From positions 1 through 22,544 of the IMG/VR virus record IMGVR_UViG_3300032246_002041: a stretch of DNA of 22,544 nt; one strand, given 5' to 3'. A program made the position numbers and the translations under genes. Under the pieces are notes generated by a model. The model was not told the origin of the DNA. It worked only from the letters and a program-made list of their open reading frames with translations, and searched no databases. Source of the DNA: a virus. Below are positions 3,589-9,932 of this stretch, piece by piece; position 1 is the stretch's first letter; each line of letters opens with the position of its first letter.

Positions 3589-3800
3589 GCAACCTCCTTT
3601 TTCTTGGAGGGATCCGTCCAGGTAATGACACGACAACGATCCTCGATCTTCAGATCGATTGGCGCGTAGCCGTAGATTTTCCTAATGAGTCGGAGTGCAG
3701 CATCGTTGAAGCCCTGCGAGGAAGTTGCCTTGTAGCCACCGGCACGGACTGTGATCGTGCTCCGGGTCTCGCTAAACGTGATCTTGAGTGATTCTCTCAT
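3585..3800 (-). CDS. 71-residue hypothetical protein
   Basis: This small soluble protein begins MRESLKITFSETRSTITVRAGG and has alternating beta-type segments, a short helix (FNDAALRLIRKIYG) and a Lys-rich end. It starts five bases after the MuB-like stop and overlaps the next gene as ATGA. No family recognised. It may act with the transposition proteins, but only its position suggests so. Confidence 0.6.
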   Translation of the reverse strand: MRESLKITFSETRSTITVRAGGYKATSSQGFNDAALRLIRKIYGYAPIDLKIEDRCRVITWTDPSKKKEVA

Positions 3801-3805
3801 GGCCG

Positions 3806-4978
3806 TTATTTCCAGTTGCCCTCGGGCTGGCTGTTGGACTTGATGAGGAGGTCGGCTCCGACGAAGTGGACCCAGTTGGTATCCTCATCCTTCTTGGCAG
3901 CCAGTTTCTTGGCGTACCGGATGCGCTCGCTGATGGCCAGGAGCCCCTCTTGCTCGGCAATCTGCCGGAGGAGGTCGTAGGGCTTCTCCACATGGCCCTT
4001 CCAGATGATCTGGGCGGACTTCTCGGGGAACTCCATGCCGTTGGCTTCAAGAATGGCCGTGAGGTCGGCCTTGGTGGGCATCGTCGGGAGCGTCAGCTTG
4101 TGGGGGCCGCGTCGCACCAGCTGCTCCATCTCGGAGTGTTGGCCTGGCTTGATCTGCTCCATGAGGAGGCGGGTGCCGCAGAGGACCATGCCGCAGCCGC
4201 TCTTATCGTGGATCTCGCGGATCACCTCCAGGCAGGAGAAGAAGCTCCCCTTGCGGTAGGTGTAGGAGAGCAGGTGGAGCTCATCGAGAATCAGGAGCAT
4301 CTCGGGGGAGAGCGCCTTGATGATGTAGGCGACCAGATCGCGGGTATTCCCCCCGGAGCTCACACCCAGCGCGGAGGCGATATTCTTGACCAGCCCTCCG
4401 AGACCGCTGGCAGCTTCCATGCGGACGTAGGGAGTGGAGCCGTGGTTGTTGTGATGGGCGTAGTTCTCTAGAGCCCAGGTCTTGCCGATATGGGAGCTGC
4501 CGATGATGAAGGCAGCGGTCTTGCTCTCGCGGGCCAGATCGCAGAGCGTCCAGACCTTGCGGGCCGTGGGCGTGAGCACGAACTCCTCTCGACCCTTGAA
4601 GCGCTTCTTCTGCCGGGAGAGCCATTCGCGAGCCGACTTGGCGAGCTTCTCGGGGATCTCCAGGCGGGCACCGGTACCGTGCTGGGTATACTTGCCGGTG
4701 TAGATGCGGGTGACGGTCGTCTTGTCGTAGCCTACCTCTTCGGCGAAGTCTGCCAGGGTGAAGGGGTGCTTCTCATCGATCGACCAGAGGAAGCAATCCA
4801 CGAGAATCTGGCGACGCTCGGCCACGCAGTGACTCATGTTGGCTCGGATGTCGTGAGCGCTGAAGTTCCAGCTCTGGCGGACGGTGCCTCCGCTGTTGCG
4901 GAAAATCACTGGGGTCTCCTCCTTGGAGGCGAGCAGGGTGGTGCTGACTTCGGGTTTGTTTTCGGTGGTGGTGGGCAT
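3806..4978 (-). CDS. MuB-like AAA+ ATPase, transposition target-DNA protein
   Basis: A 390-residue ATPase of the MuB/TniB type. Such proteins bind target DNA as ATP-dependent filaments, stimulate the transposase and give target immunity. Visible parts are an N-terminal helix-turn-helix at residues about 73-96 (FTLADFAEEVGYDKTTVTRI), as in Mu B, Walker A GSSHIGKT (160-167), Walker B LLILDELH (228-235), and a sensor-like stretch GMVLCGTR (263-270). The C-terminal third is helical (PYDLLRQIAEQEG). It is longer than Mu B (312 residues), mainly at the N-terminus, with about 70 extra residues before the helix-turn-helix. It lies 32 bases downstream of the transposase, after an A/C-rich leader with the CCGAAC box. 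Confidence 0.9.
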   Translation of the reverse strand: MPTTTENKPEVSTTLLASKEETPVIFRNSGGTVRQSWNFSAHDIRANMSHCVAERRQILVDCFLWSIDEKHPFTLADFAEEVGYDKTTVTRIYTGKYTQHGTGARLEIPEKLAKSAREWLSRQKKRFKGREEFVLTPTARKVWTLCDLARESKTAAFIIGSSHIGKTWALENYAHHNNHGSTPYVRMEAASGLGGLVKNIASALGVSSGGNTRDLVAYIIKALSPEMLLILDELHLLSYTYRKGSFFSCLEVIREIHDKSGCGMVLCGTRLLMEQIKPGQHSEMEQLVRRGPHKLTLPTMPTKADLTAILEANGMEFPEKSAQIIWKGHVEKPYDLLRQIAEQEGLLAISERIRYAKKLAAKKDEDTNWVHFVGADLLIKSNSQPEGNWK

Positions 4979-5010
4979 GGTGCGTTCGGGGTGTTTGGTT
5001 TGGTTGGGTG

Positions 5011-6918
5011 TTAGAGCAGGTCTTCTGCGCTAAAGTTGGTGGAGTCGTCGGCCGTGCTGGCTAGGGCGTAGGAGTCGGGTTGTTCCTCCGTCTCATCCAG
5101 GAGGCCGGAGGCATCGACTGAGCGGAGCATGCGGACGCGTGCTCGCTCCTCGGAGGTCATGGGGGCTCCGGAGACCACGGCTGCGTTGTGCCGGGCATTG
5201 GCAGCCTTCTCTCGAGCCTCTTTCATGTGGCGGGCGCGGAAGGGAGCCAGCGCCTCAGCCTCGGCCTTGGAGGCCCGCCCGCAGGCTTCTGCGACGGCTC
5301 GGAGATCAGCCCTGTCGACTGAGGTGATGCGGGGGCAGGCGGTGACGAAGCGACCCTTCGCGTCGAAGCACCAGATCACCTCGGGAGTATAAGGATTCAG
5401 AATCGTGGAGTAGCGCTCTCCCTCGGTGAGGAGTCGGGCGTCGAAGCGGAGGACATCACCGGAGAGCTCCCCGTCGCGTGTCTCGATCATGCCGCGTCGC
5501 ACCGAGCGCTCTTCGCCTGAATCGGGGAGGAGAATAGAGGCTACTGCCTGAGGACGGAGGCGTGTGAGTTCACGCGTTCCAGGACGGAAGACTTCGTTCG
5601 GGGATTTGCGGCGCATCCCGCCGCTGCGGAGATCAGGCACGTAGTGCATATCCCATCCTTCTAGCTGGTGATCGGTACGGTCATTGATGCGCTGGTAGAT
5701 CTCTTTGGCGATGATCCGAAACTGCTGGATCGTCATGATATCCCAGCGGAGCATCTCCTGACGCTCCGGAGGCAGATAGGTCATGGCTGCGAGCAGGGCA
5801 TCGTTGCGCTTGAGCATTCCATGCAGCTGCTCAGGGCGGTGATCGGTATCCTTGCCGGTCTGTCCAGGGAGAGCGGCCATCTCGTTGTGGATGAGGTTAC
5901 CGAGGGTTTCGAGCGCCGCCTTGAAGCGGAAGTTTCCCTTCGCCCTGCCTGCGTATTGGTGCGCGGCAGCGGCAGCGCCCTCCATGCCGGATCGTGCGAC
6001 GGTCACTAGCCCCCCTGTCTCTTCGTGCAAGAAGCGCTCCAAATCCGAGTGGATCGCGGCGGTGCCATGCTCGACGACGAGCGTGGTGCCACGGTGAGAG
6101 TAGCCGGTGCCACCCAGGACCATGGCGAGCAGGAAGCGCATGTCGGCTTCCTTGAGTCCCTCCATGGTGCCATCCGCACGCTCGGTCCGCACACGCATTC
6201 CCCAGGCGAACTTATTGGCGGAGTAGAGATCGAGGGCGTGGAACTCCAGAGGACGGCCGCTCTTGCGCTGATCGATGTGGTTGACGAAGTGATCATGCCA
6301 GATGTCATCGAACATGTAGTGAGAGCCCACCCAGAGGTTGGCACGTGTCGTGTAGACCAGCTGCCGCTCGCTTGCAGCGGCGCTGCGGCCGATGCGGGCA
6401 TTCTTGAGCTCGTACTTGGTAGGGATGTGGCGCATGAGGTTGCGCTCGCCCCACCCGAAGGGGAATCCGCTCTCTGAGTTCATCGGTGTGGCTGTGATCA
6501 CCTCTCCCTTGACGTAGTCGCGGCGCAGGGCACGGATCGCCGCCTGGGAGGAGCGCTGATAGCGCTCGCAGTAGGTCTTGAGCAGTTCCTTGTCCGCATG
6601 GGAGAGGGATCTGGACTCGCTGGCATTCCATGCGGCGGGTCCGCAGAGACGGCGGTCGATGATGGCCGACCATCCGGAGCGCTTCACCAGGTAGAACTTC
6701 TTGCGGATCGTCCCCTCACTCTGACCGCTCCGGTCAGCGAGATCGGCGATGGCCTTGGAGACCCCGCGCTCCATAATGAGCAATGGGGAGAGCAACTCAC
6801 GCCAGAAGAGGAAGTCCTCGCGTGCCCTGGTCGGCAGGGTGGCCAGATCGGAAGGCAGCATCTCTGATCCGGCGAAGGGAATGAGAGATGAGGATGAAGG
6901 TAGGAGAATCGTGCTCAT
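5011..6918 (-). CDS. MuA-like DDE transposase
   Basis: This 635-residue protein is the strand-transfer transposase. Residues about 30-130 form helical DNA-binding segments (EGTIRKKFYLVKRSGW). The catalytic RNase H-like core spans about 195-355: first acidic site near D204/D205 (MFDDIWHD), second near E283 (VVEHGTAAI) where most relatives have D-N-G, and third near E337 (FKAALETLG). A beta-barrel-like region (about 450-530) and a basic helical tail with RARHMKEAREKAA (about 570-590) follow, as in the MuA C-terminal domains that contact MuB. The ATG at 6918 overlaps the previous TGA as ATGA, so I reject the upstream extension of 43 codons. Size is near that of MuA (663). Recombination ends were not found. 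Confidence 0.92.
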   Translation of the reverse strand: MSTILLPSSSSLIPFAGSEMLPSDLATLPTRAREDFLFWRELLSPLLIMERGVSKAIADLADRSGQSEGTIRKKFYLVKRSGWSAIIDRRLCGPAAWNASESRSLSHADKELLKTYCERYQRSSQAAIRALRRDYVKGEVITATPMNSESGFPFGWGERNLMRHIPTKYELKNARIGRSAAASERQLVYTTRANLWVGSHYMFDDIWHDHFVNHIDQRKSGRPLEFHALDLYSANKFAWGMRVRTERADGTMEGLKEADMRFLLAMVLGGTGYSHRGTTLVVEHGTAAIHSDLERFLHEETGGLVTVARSGMEGAAAAAHQYAGRAKGNFRFKAALETLGNLIHNEMAALPGQTGKDTDHRPEQLHGMLKRNDALLAAMTYLPPERQEMLRWDIMTIQQFRIIAKEIYQRINDRTDHQLEGWDMHYVPDLRSGGMRRKSPNEVFRPGTRELTRLRPQAVASILLPDSGEERSVRRGMIETRDGELSGDVLRFDARLLTEGERYSTILNPYTPEVIWCFDAKGRFVTACPRITSVDRADLRAVAEACGRASKAEAEALAPFRARHMKEAREKAANARHNAAVVSGAPMTSEERARVRMLRSVDASGLLDETEEQPDSYALASTADDSTNFSAEDLL

Positions 6919-7160
6919 AAGGTGATCAGTGGTGAGGGCCTGTAGGCGGCCGAATGGATGTACTCCCAGATCAGCTCGATGGCTGGTGGGCGATGAGTGA
7001 AGATCGATCCAGCCGCGCAGAGTAGGGAGACCTCCCCACCCGGCCACTCCAGCGCAATGCCCCAGACCGGTGCGTAGAGCAGCGTGCCATCGGGAGAGAT
7101 CCCGAAGGCGCAGGATCGCTTCCGTGCGACGTAGGCGATATTCTCAGGAATTTGGGGCAT
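6915..7160 (-). CDS. 81-residue hypothetical protein upstream of transposase
   Basis: The protein begins MPQIPENIAYVARKRSC and shows a compact beta-rich pattern (AFGISPDGTLLYAPVWGIALEW). Its stop overlaps the transposase start as ATGA, so it probably sets the level of transposase translation. The leader of 19 bases is C-rich with no Shine-Dalgarno sequence. I do not recognise a family. The frame could be a true accessory of transposition or just a coupling cistron. Confidence 0.6.
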   Translation of the reverse strand: MPQIPENIAYVARKRSCAFGISPDGTLLYAPVWGIALEWPGGEVSLLCAAGSIFTHRPPAIELIWEYIHSAAYRPSPLITL

Positions 7161-7179
7161 GGCGTGGAGGGGTGGAGAG

Positions 7180-7977
7180 TTATTTGGCGGCGAGGGCCTT
7201 CAGCTTGCGGGCCGTGCGCTCGTGGCGCGGGATGGCGACGTAGGCCTTGGCCTTGGTCACCCAGTCGCTGAAGATGTCGATGCCGAGGCGGATCTGGTCA
7301 TCGGTGAGGTAGTGCCAGTCCGAGCGGTCGATGATCTTGTCCAGCTCACTGAAGGTGCGGAGGACCTCCTCACGGCGGACCTTCTCGACCTCCTCCGGAG
7401 AGGGAGGAGGCAGGTTGGCACCGGCGTTGGCAGGATGCAGGCGGTGGAGGGTGGCGGGATTCGGAGGGGAGAAGCGGTCAAGCCAGGAGCGCTGCGAGGT
7501 GCCGTTGACGTATTCCCAGAGCTCGCTCTGCTTCTGCTGCAGCTTCTCGGGGAGCTGGGAGAACTCAGTGGTGGCTAGCTCGATGAAGGAGACCTTGGCA
7601 GGGAGTTGGAAATCGCGTGCAACTGCCTCAGCGACATGGAGAAAGCGGTAGGCTGTCGATTTTTTAACATCAGGGGCAAACACACGGAGCCACTCAGAGA
7701 CACCATCCTTGTTACCTCTGCCTCCCTTGGAAACCTGTCCAAGTGCGGACAAGTTTTGATTCAGCCACATCATCATGGCTCCGAAGCGGAGGACTTCGGT
7801 CATGCCGCCGACCGCCTTGCGGTACTGATCGGTGAGCTGAGTGCCGAATTCAGCACCCTGCTCAGCGTCGTGAAGATTGCCAGCTCCGACTACTTGTACG
7901 GCTTGTCCGCGCTGTTCGGTTGTTGGTGCGCCTGCTGGCGAGGCGTGAGTGGTGGAAAGGGTTAGGTCTTTTTTCAT
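7180..7977 (-). CDS. DUF3102-like early protein
   Basis: A 265-residue protein with a Thr/Ala-rich flexible N-terminus (about 1-35), then a helical core. The stretch VLRFGAMMMWLNQNLSALG, GNKDGVSEWLRVF and STAYRFLHVAEAV (residues about 62-117) resembles the DUF3102 pattern, in which a short 'W-L' motif precedes a helix-turn-helix that ends in Y-x-x-I/V-A-E. A Pro-rich linker (about 178-196, LPPPSPEEVEKV) separates a helical C-terminal domain (SELDKIIDRSDWHYLTDDQ). Possible DNA-binding protein placed two genes before the transposase. No enzyme motif. The leader (CAAGCAAGCAACC before ATG) has no Shine-Dalgarno sequence. Family assignment is tentative. Confidence 0.6.
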   Translation of the reverse strand: MKKDLTLSTTHASPAGAPTTEQRGQAVQVVGAGNLHDAEQGAEFGTQLTDQYRKAVGGMTEVLRFGAMMMWLNQNLSALGQVSKGGRGNKDGVSEWLRVFAPDVKKSTAYRFLHVAEAVARDFQLPAKVSFIELATTEFSQLPEKLQQKQSELWEYVNGTSQRSWLDRFSPPNPATLHRLHPANAGANLPPPSPEEVEKVRREEVLRTFSELDKIIDRSDWHYLTDDQIRLGIDIFSDWVTKAKAYVAIPRHERTARKLKALAAK

Positions 7978-8444: not shown

Positions 8445-8705
8445 TTAGAGGGTCTTCTTGTTCAGGAAGGCGATGAGCTCCGCGCGGGGGACCCGATACA
8501 TGGTCTTGGAGGCGTTGGGGGAGCGGAGGTCGGTGGCCTTGAGCGCTCCCGAGTCGATAAGGTTGATCCAGTGCTGCATGGAGGTTTTGAACCACATGGC
8601 CAGCCATGGAATGGTGAAGCTCTCCATCCCGGCGGGAAGGTGGTGCTGGAAGTCGAACTCCGGTGCGGTGGCGGCGTTGGTCTTCATGGCGAGCTTCACG
8701 GTCAT
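8445..8705 (-). CDS. Excisionase/Ner-like helix-turn-helix protein
   Basis: An 86-residue protein whose second half reads as a MerR/excisionase-type helix-turn-helix: FTIPWLAMWFKTSMQHWINL, then GALKATDLR, then a basic beta wing (SKTMYRVPRAELIAFLN). Such proteins bind DNA with a recognition helix and wing. It is the second gene of the early operon, the place of Ner in Mu, where a Cro-like protein shuts down early transcription, so it may have that role by position. Start may be Met1 (three bases after the upstream stop) or Met7. The protein ends three genes before the DUF3102-like one. Confidence 0.65.
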   Translation of the reverse strand: MTVKLAMKTNAATAPEFDFQHHLPAGMESFTIPWLAMWFKTSMQHWINLIDSGALKATDLRSPNASKTMYRVPRAELIAFLNKKTL

Positions 8706-8708
8706 TCC

Positions 8709-8894
8709 TTAGGCTGCGGCTAATGGAGTCCTCTCCAACTTTTCCTTGAGTGCTGCGCGGATGAACTTGCTGCGGTCGAGATCCTGACAGCGTATGGCTT
8801 CATCGATCTGGAGGAGCATTTGATTGGGAACCCATCCACCAATGAACTTCGCATCCATCTTGGTAAGGGCTCCTCGTTTGAGTTTCTTTCGCAT
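8709..8894 (-). CDS. Ribbon-helix-helix regulator, first early gene
   Basis: This 61-residue protein fits an Arc/MetJ/CopG-type ribbon-helix-helix: basic N-terminus (MRKKLKRGALTK), a beta strand (KFIGGWVP), helix one (NQMLLQIDEAIRCQDLD), and helix two (RSKFIRAALKEKLER). Such proteins bind DNA as dimers through the paired strands and usually recognise tandem short repeats. It is the first gene after a sigma70-like promoter that carries two ACCCAGT repeats, so self-regulation is likely. It faces a second protein of the same fold across 94 bases. No Shine-Dalgarno sequence is seen. Confidence 0.75.
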   Translation of the reverse strand: MRKKLKRGALTKMDAKFIGGWVPNQMLLQIDEAIRCQDLDRSKFIRAALKEKLERTPLAAA

Positions 8895-8917
8895 GGTTTC
8901 TTGTACTTGCTTAAAAC

Positions 8918-8946
8918 CATTTAGACCCAGTTAAACACCCAGTCAA
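8918..8946 (-). promoter_or_regulatory. Predicted leftward early promoter
   Basis: On the minus strand TTGACT (8946-8941) is followed after exactly 17 bases by TAAATG (8923-8918). The -35 box matches five of six consensus bases and the -10 box three of six. An overlapping TCTAAA at spacing 15 is an alternative -10. The predicted start would lie near 8910, upstream of the first early gene. Both ACCCAGT repeats overlap the promoter. Confidence 0.5.
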
Positions 8947-8980
8947 TAAAATCTTTGGAAAAAGATTTAAGGGTGTTAAA
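8925..8980. promoter_or_regulatory. Probable compound operator
   Basis: Direct repeats ACCCAGT occur at 8925-8931 and 8937-8943, 12 bp apart, inside the leftward promoter. An inverted repeat pairs TTAAACACCC (8931-8940) with GGGTGTTAAA (8971-8980), nine of ten positions. Inside it is a perfect one, AAATCTTT (8949-8956) and AAAGATTT (8961-8968), around GGAA. Tandem half-sites about one helical turn apart suit ribbon-helix-helix dimers such as the two encoded on either side. Binding is inferred. Confidence 0.6.
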
Positions 8981-8988
8981 ACAACTTT

Positions 8989-9327
8989 ATGGCAAACCAA
9001 CGCAGAGCGGGACAAAAGCTCATCGGCTGTCAGGCAGACGAGACGCTAATCGCCCAGATAGACGCTGCACGCGGCAGGAAGGGACGTAGTTTCTTCTTAC
9101 GTGAGGCTCTCGCCGAAAAGCTTCGGCAAATGGGCTATGAGGTGAGCGACGATCTTGTCTACGCCCCCGACCCGATTCGATCCGCGATTGTTGCCGATCA
9201 AAGCGGGAGCTATAACACCATGAACATCCATCAATCTACATCGCGCTCTGCCCTGCCTCGGAGCGCTGTCCAACGTGCAACGGCAGGAAAAAAACCAGCC
9301 GGAAAAAAAAGGAGTAAGAAGAAATGA
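8989..9327 (+). CDS. Ribbon-helix-helix regulator, candidate phage repressor
   Basis: A 112-residue protein with an N-terminal ribbon-helix-helix domain at about 1-55: KLIGCQADETLIAQIDAA, GRKGRSFFLREALAEKL. The segment 55-95 appears flexible, and the end is a Lys-rich tail (GKKPAGKKRSKKK) that could add non-specific DNA contact. It is transcribed rightward from the divergent control region, opposite the early operon, which is the expected place for the lysogeny repressor. Mu itself uses a different fold for its c repressor, so this is position-based inference. The stop overlaps the next start as ATGA. A rightward promoter is not obvious. Confidence 0.65.
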   Translation: MANQRRAGQKLIGCQADETLIAQIDAARGRKGRSFFLREALAEKLRQMGYEVSDDLVYAPDPIRSAIVADQSGSYNTMNIHQSTSRSALPRSAVQRATAGKKPAGKKRSKKK

Positions 9328-9932
9328 AATTGCTTTTGGCAGCTCTGCTATTCGGATCTTCTTCGCTATTTGCTGATTCGGTTCAGCTTAAAAATGGAGT
9401 ATGTATAGCTTTTGATAGAATCATCGAGTCAGGTCAAGACGAGTTGGTTGTTTCTCGGAGTACAAATGGGGGAACGATGAAGATACCCTATTTATCAATG
9501 ACTCTCGAATCTCTCAGGAAATTCGGGTGTGTGCAAAAGAGCATAGATTCCTACATAAAAACTGAGATGGTTAAATACTCAGAACGGTTTGATAAAGACT
9601 TAAAGGATCATGAGATTGATGCTATGAGTCTAAAGATTCGAGTTGTTCAGGTGCTCGATGACGGCTTGCTTTGCAGGTTTGAAAAAATCTTACTCCATCC
9701 AACAAAAAAATATCCTGAATGTATGTTGATTGATGATGATCGTATGGCGTACCTACAAAATGGCCCCACCAATGTGATAGATGCAGATGAATTGAATGTT
9801 GTCGCTTATCACTCAGGAACTCACCGTTATCAGGCTGTAACTGGAGCAAACAAGACCATCGAGCAATGGACTTTTATTTGCTATACAAGAGACCTTCCAG
9901 AAAATCATCTTTGGAAGCCTGTAATGGATTAA
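9324..9932 (+). CDS. Secreted protein of unknown role, probable moron
   Basis: This 202-residue protein has a clear signal peptide (MKLLLAALLFGSSSLFA, cleaved before DSVQL), so it should be exported. The mature start has a short beta module (SVQLKNGVCIAFDRI, then GGTMKIPYLSMTL) that resembles the 'L-K-D-G ... I-P-...L' modules of some secreted proteins of Verrucomicrobiota and Planctomycetota. The rest is unrecognised. The gene overlaps the repressor-like gene as ATGA, so it would be expressed in the same rightward transcript, perhaps in the lysogen. Its composition is visibly more AT-rich than the flanking genes, with long A/T runs, which suggests recent gain. A surface or periplasmic role such as superinfection exclusion is possible but not shown. 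Confidence 0.7.
   Translation: MKLLLAALLFGSSSLFADSVQLKNGVCIAFDRIIESGQDELVVSRSTNGGTMKIPYLSMTLESLRKFGCVQKSIDSYIKTEMVKYSERFDKDLKDHEIDAMSLKIRVVQVLDDGLLCRFEKILLHPTKKYPECMLIDDDRMAYLQNGPTNVIDADELNVVAYHSGTHRYQAVTGANKTIEQWTFICYTRDLPENHLWKPVMD

Follow-up and report, generated by a model that had tools for sequence, protein, structure and literature searches.

Divergent ribbon-helix-helix genes heading a Mu-type transposase operon as a probable phage immunity switch interchanged with helix-turn-helix pairs

In the DNA analyzed here, two genes for ribbon-helix-helix (RHH) proteins diverge over a shared candidate operator region, as the first-pass annotation had proposed. The pair heads a Mu-type transposase operon, and this layout recurs in relatives. 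We interpret the locus as the lysis-lysogeny (immunity) switch of a Mu-like phage that would employ two homologous RHH proteins instead of helix-turn-helix (HTH) repressors, a reading to which we assign a probability of roughly three in four. The whole stretch (the window) is a linear IMG/VR record of 22,544 bases from a probably incomplete phage, which its genes place among the Mu-like (transposable) phages, in an uncultured phage group of Verrucomicrobia-type bacteria. Searches of cultured phages for relatives of the transposase, RHH1, and RHH2 yielded none. The leftward transposase (early) operon begins with RHH1 (61 amino acids; 8709..8894, minus strand), in the Ner/Cro position; a second early gene (8445..8705; weak HTH_17 match), a MuA-like transposase gene (5011..7047; phrog_310, E=1.6e-20; conserved portion beginning near 6861), and a MuB-like transposition ATPase gene (3806..4978; phrog_296, E=4.4e-38) lie on the same strand. 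RHH2 (112 amino acids; 8989..9327, plus strand) diverges from this operon in the repressor position, and its stop codon is overlapped by a 202-amino-acid gene with a signal-peptide-like start (9324..9932, plus strand), which fills a variable cargo slot behind RHH2. The intergenic control region (8895..8988) is exactly the 94 bp separating the starts of RHH1 and RHH2 and holds two opposed promoters, with a candidate operator arm in each. The Mu-type c/Ner layout, i.e., a divergent regulator facing the first gene of the transposase operon, is present in the window.

Both flanking genes had been assigned to the RHH fold from the sequence, and the profile evidence agrees. RHH1 of the window falls just below the curated cutoff of Pfam RHH_1 (E=7.8e-4; 19.8 bits for a cutoff of 20.5), and its orthologues in the related loci L014, L033, and L034 score above it (23-26 bits). 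RHH2 of the window alone matches the same model weakly (E=0.13), its orthologue in L043 passes the cutoff (24 bits), and profile-profile comparison joined the RHH2 family to the RHH1 family with a probability of 97.6% (E=3.5e-12). The RHH domain of RHH2 is N-terminal (approximately residues 9-50) and precedes a variable tail; the AlphaFold2 model of the protein has a strand-helix-helix block at residues 9-48 with a pLDDT of 78-93, and the model of RHH1 is unreliable (pLDDT 67). Foldseek comparison of the RHH2 model with the PDB retrieved no RHH fold match, and profile searches of PDB sequences returned weak matches only, to RHH antitoxins for RHH1 and to mixed proteins for RHH2. By the profile matches, both proteins belong to the RHH (CopG/Arc/MetJ) superfamily and their families are homologous. 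Identity across diverged loci is 28-36% for RHH2 and 34-54% for RHH1. RHH2 of the nearest relative (L003; 5716-5907, minus strand) comprises 63 amino acids, with the stop right behind the RHH domain and 96% identical sequence running on past it, which suggests that the protein can do without its C-terminal tail. The strand residue expected to face DNA, assigned by analogy with Arc and read from alignments, is W in both paralogues of L014 and L033; in the window it is W in RHH1 versus Q in RHH2. This difference suggests that the relative affinities of the two window proteins may differ and that they may not read the same site.

The control region contains the leftward promoter described in the first-pass annotation, with counterparts in relatives. 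This early promoter (8918..8946, minus strand) combines a -35 TTGACT (8946-8941), a 17-nt spacer, and a -10 TAAATG (8923-8918), and the summed score of the early promoters of eight loci was reached by 1 of 1,000 shuffled sets. An opposed, conserved promoter that had escaped the annotation precedes RHH2 (8955..8982, plus strand), with -35 TTGGAA (8955-8960), 16 nt, and -10 TAAAAC (8977-8982). Its counterparts read TTGGAT-16-TAAAAC in L033, TTGTAA-16-TAAAAG in L034, TTGAAA-16-TAAAAG in L023, and TTGGCA-16-TAAAGT in L014, and the summed score of the RHH2 promoters was reached by none of 1,000 shuffled sets. Promoter calls were consensus based; a strict default promoter scan of the region reported none. 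The RHH2 -10 of the window ends 6 nt ahead of the ATG, and each RHH2 promoter in these five loci stops 6-7 nt short of the start codon, a spacing that suggests a probably leaderless RHH2 mRNA.

Repeats within the control region had been read as a compound operator, and every string named in that reading was located where it had been placed. The outer inverted repeat pairs TTAAACACCC (8931..8940), inside the early-promoter spacer, with GGGTGTTAAA (8971..8980; the inverse of TTTAACACCC), over the RHH2 -10, at 9 of 10 positions; the latter arm is one of only three matches with at most one mismatch in the whole window (0.31 expected). The inner inverted repeat (8949..8968) matches at 8 of 8 positions, AAATCTTT (8949-8956) and AAAGATTT (8961-8968) flanking an A/T spacer, and ACCCAGT forms a direct repeat (8925..8943) with copies at 8925-8931 and 8937-8943, 12 bp apart. 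Dinucleotide shuffles of the AT-rich 94 bp contained a 10-nt inverted repeat with at most one mismatch in 37% of cases, an exact 7-nt direct repeat in 54%, and a perfect 8-nt inverted repeat in 24%, and the best-repeat test on the window alone gave p=0.32. The repeats of the window by themselves are thus no better than chance, and the case for an operator relies on comparison with relatives. This comparison preserved the outer repeat of the proposed compound operator and discarded its other two elements. L003, which is 93-96% identical, lacks the left arm of the inner repeat (AAATCTTT is changed to AAAAAATT), and its second ACCCAGT reads ACCCCGT; on these changes and the shuffling frequencies we rejected both repeats as operators, and both are probably incidental. 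TTAAAAC also occurs twice, at 8911-8917 (just inside the early -10) and 8976-8982 (over the RHH2 -10), exactly 65 bp apart. Both copies are kept in L003, and the motif is possibly a third half-site.

For comparison of the outer arms, loci were oriented with RHH1 drawn rightward, the left arm adjoining the RHH2 start and the right arm lying in the early-promoter spacer. Left and right arms are, respectively, TTTAACACCC and GGGTGTTTAA in the window, TTTAACGCC and GGCGTTAAA in L034, AGTTTAACC and GGTTAAACT in L004, and TTTAACACT and AGTGTTAAA in L023. Strong palindromes occur in the early-promoter region of L014 (AACGACTTTAACTCAGTTAAAGTCGTT), L043 (GGTGTAATAAAGTTTATTACACC), and L042 (CTAAGTATA..TATACTTAG). 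The best inverted repeats of eight independent loci combined to a Fisher p=6.4e-8, to which the window, L033, L034, and L023 each add little; the window operator has the lowest symmetry among them and does not reach significance by itself. Left and right arms paired better within than between loci (16 of 40,320 permutations; p=4e-4). The window and L033 share a 17-nt word, AAGTTGTTTTAACACCC, at the same position although their RHH2 proteins are only about 35% identical; the longest shared word in 3,000 shuffled pairs was 11 nt. By this comparison, the outer repeat is a genuine conserved candidate operator, with position and symmetry kept and covarying arms, of which the left overlaps the RHH2 -10 and the other lies within the early-promoter spacer.

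Relatives were collected with transposase and RHH1 searches and comprise viral contigs and contigs of mostly Verrucomicrobia metagenome-assembled genomes (MAGs). A divergent RHH2/RHH1 pair was found in the window, L003, L004, L014, L023, L033, L034, L042/L045, and L043 (L003 and L005 are the same contig; L023 is a Verrucomicrobia subdivision 3 MAG). The pair heads a MuA/MuB operon in the window, L003, L004, L014, L023, and L042/L045, accompanies a MuB-family gene in L033/L034, and was seen from the regulator genes alone in L043. L016 has a divergent pair from a separate RHH lineage, and RHH1 of L035 (7001-7222, plus strand) heads the transposase operon without a divergent RHH2. Transposase relatives such as L009, L010, L013, L015, L017, and L018 carry a divergent HTH pair in the same slot, which marks this slot as the expected position of the lysis-lysogeny switch. 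Cargo behind RHH2 varies among loci (PLD-like, GYF_2, BamE-like, and others without assignment), and these genes gave no match to toxin families. GYF_2-domain proteins occupy the cargo slot, all on the minus strand, in L010 (2279-2794), L013 (2581-3285), L017 (1968-2579), and L014 (2694-3305); the first three are HTH phages, in which the protein is encoded close to the regulator and on its repressor side, and in L014 it is encoded directly behind RHH2. A PLD-like lipoprotein-type gene (4845-5384, minus strand; PLDc_2, E=1e-25) fills the RHH2 cargo slot of L003; the corresponding slot of the window holds a gene for an unrelated protein of secreted type. Behind RHH1 in L045, a Verrucomicrobiota prophage, are a small gene (6244-6528, plus strand), which reads by eye like an RHH protein and has no Pfam match, and a Bro-N gene (6637-7368, plus strand); L009 also carries a Bro-N gene.

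The distribution of the two kinds of pair was mapped onto transposase trees. A first, wider tree, which included long branches, called for five changes between the RHH and HTH states. The second tree was restricted to well-aligned rows, with long branches removed, and L033, L034, and L035 were excluded on account of a 2% profile probability between their transposases and the window family. On this tree the RHH state requires four changes, each imposed by supported branches, and placing the RHH loci in one clade was rejected (AU p=0.000175). L009 (HTH) is sister of the window group (RHH), and L017 (HTH) is sister of L016 (RHH), both with support of 100/100. By this phylogeny, the RHH and HTH versions have been interchanged at least four times, and the whole gene pair, together with the DNA sites between the genes, has on several occasions been exchanged for a pair of the usual kind. 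The second early gene (8445..8705) has a counterpart in the HTH-type relative L009 and thus stands outside the swapped pair.

No HTH_3 or S24 match was detected in the window record, and a repressor of another family, which had been raised as a possible controller of the early promoter, was not found within the window. HTH_3 genes over the cutoff were likewise lacking in the records of L005, L016, L033, L034, and L035, and those in the record of L004 (G001), which belong to HsdM and to a neighbor of hipA, are located away from the early region. The 42-52 kb stretch of G001 (L049) encodes type I restriction-modification (HsdM), a patatin plus a SMODS nucleotidyltransferase (CBASS-like), and hipA with an HTH partner, and is likely a defense-island-like host flank beside the phage. 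L014 is an exception in that it combines the RHH pair with an additional classical HTH_3 regulator, a 167-amino-acid protein with two HTH_3 domains encoded directly behind RHH1 (3797-4297, plus strand). The Mu-type repressor model (HTH_Tnp_Mu_1) found nothing in 17 records, a result of little weight given that it rang in no control genome either. L011 carries a LexA/CI-type S24 peptidase; the RHH-type records are without one, implying that their induction would not proceed via RecA-driven self-cleavage of a CI/LexA-type repressor.

A circuit can be proposed from this arrangement. RHH2, being outside the transposase operon and ahead of the cargo genes, would be the lysogenic repressor; on the early-promoter arm it would keep RHH1-MuA-MuB off, and on the other arm it would regulate its own synthesis. 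RHH1, the first product of the early operon, would act as the Ner/Cro analogue, binding the same arms as RHH2, shutting off RHH2, and later dampening its own promoter. The roles of repressor and Ner/Cro analogue are assigned by position only.

The records are fragments, which leaves room for a primary repressor beyond the sequenced DNA. The RHH pair might accordingly play an auxiliary part in immunity, as a secondary circuit of the P22 immI (mnt/arc) kind, with the primary repressor in the missing part of the phage, an arrangement that we regard as unlikely. Its precedent is P22, in which mutual control between arc and mnt, together with their control of ant, takes place within a region that only modulates lysogeny (PMC11016777), and it would fit the incompleteness of the window phage, the Bro-N genes (a domain frequent in antirepressors) near the switch in L045 and L009, and the HTH_3 gene beside the RHH pair of L014. 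However, the RHH pair heads the transposase operon, where relatives keep their only repressor/Ner pair. Furthermore, the window has no HTH_3, Mu-type, or S24 repressor (the Mu-type model being silent in control genomes too), most RHH-type records have no HTH_3 over the cutoff in phage DNA, and the early genes tested in the window gave no antirepressor match.

It is also conceivable, but improbable, that the operator serves one RHH protein alone, its partner having an antitoxin-like or accessory function and merely being encoded divergently. RHH domains are common in antitoxins, weak VapB and CcdA-like matches appear in L043 and L016, and the expected base-reading strand residues are unlike between RHH1 and RHH2 of the window. 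Set against this are the homology of the two families and their joint retention in at least nine loci, the variable cargo behind RHH2 with no member matching a toxin family, and the presence of one candidate operator arm in each promoter. It appears very improbable that all of the repeats arose by chance in an A/T-rich intergenic sequence that contains no operator. The inner repeat and the ACCCAGT direct repeat are probably chance products, as shuffling the 94-bp control region yielded each kind of repeat at frequencies of 24-54%, but for the outer repeat this explanation is contradicted by the conservation of the outer arms, their covariation, and the conservation of the promoters across diverged loci. 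Collectively, we favor an immunity switch made of both RHH proteins. Extending this reading beyond the window, we lean toward the view that a widespread group of transposable phages has, as its only and primary immunity switch, such an RHH/RHH pair with one inverted-operator arm per opposed promoter. As a cassette, this pair would trade places with HTH switches, and a phage could then change immunity class by replacing fold and operator together.

Textbook models of phage immunity switches derive nearly all from HTH repressors. A primary switch composed of two paralogous RHH proteins, if confirmed, would mean that one DNA-binding fold can be replaced by another within a conserved circuit layout, and the swaps, at least four among close transposase relatives, would provide natural replacements for testing cassette change against immunity.

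The locus resembles Mu c/Ner in that a putative repressor gene diverges from the gene that opens the transposase operon, with a control region common to both. It differs in its proteins, which are both RHH here versus winged-helix and lambda-type HTH in Mu, and in its operator arms and promoters, which are unrelated to those of Mu; the Mu-type repressor model had no match here (nor in control genomes). Variation of the switch between phages is a further likeness, the repressor and Ner-like ORFs being poorly conserved in Pseudomonas Mu-like phages (PMC4378225). F55 of the Sulfolobus virus SSV1 is a small viral RHH protein that binds both its own promoter and the early promoters and keeps the virus in the lysogenic/carrier state (PMC9608457). 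Unlike the pair in the window, it belongs to an archaeal virus and is a single protein with ATAGATAGAGT sites and no divergent RHH partner described. The CI/Cro-type HTH modules of L009, L010, L013, L015, L017, and L018 share the slot, the neighboring early genes, and the GYF_2 cargo but consist of HTH_3 proteins where the window has RHH proteins.

Phage P22 offers the other comparison, as its mnt and arc genes are divergent and both RHH, and the Arc operator lies between the -35 and -10 of Pant. The window shares with this immI region two divergent RHH genes with a common control region, known here from the layout, and a candidate operator arm between the -35 and -10 of its early promoter. 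In P22, mnt and arc act on each other and on ant, and the region is a secondary one (PMC11016777, PMC2629481). That region controls an antirepressor, with C2/Cro as the primary switch, whereas the window pair heads the transposase operon, with no C2-like gene found and no antirepressor match among the early genes tested. The open-access literature on RHH proteins and lysogeny or Mu-like phages yielded no description of a paired RHH switch that heads a transposase operon. The first-pass annotation had presented a paired RHH switch as a different solution for lysis-lysogeny control, a description that is overstated in view of P22 arc/mnt (PMC11016777), a known precedent for a paired phage RHH circuit.
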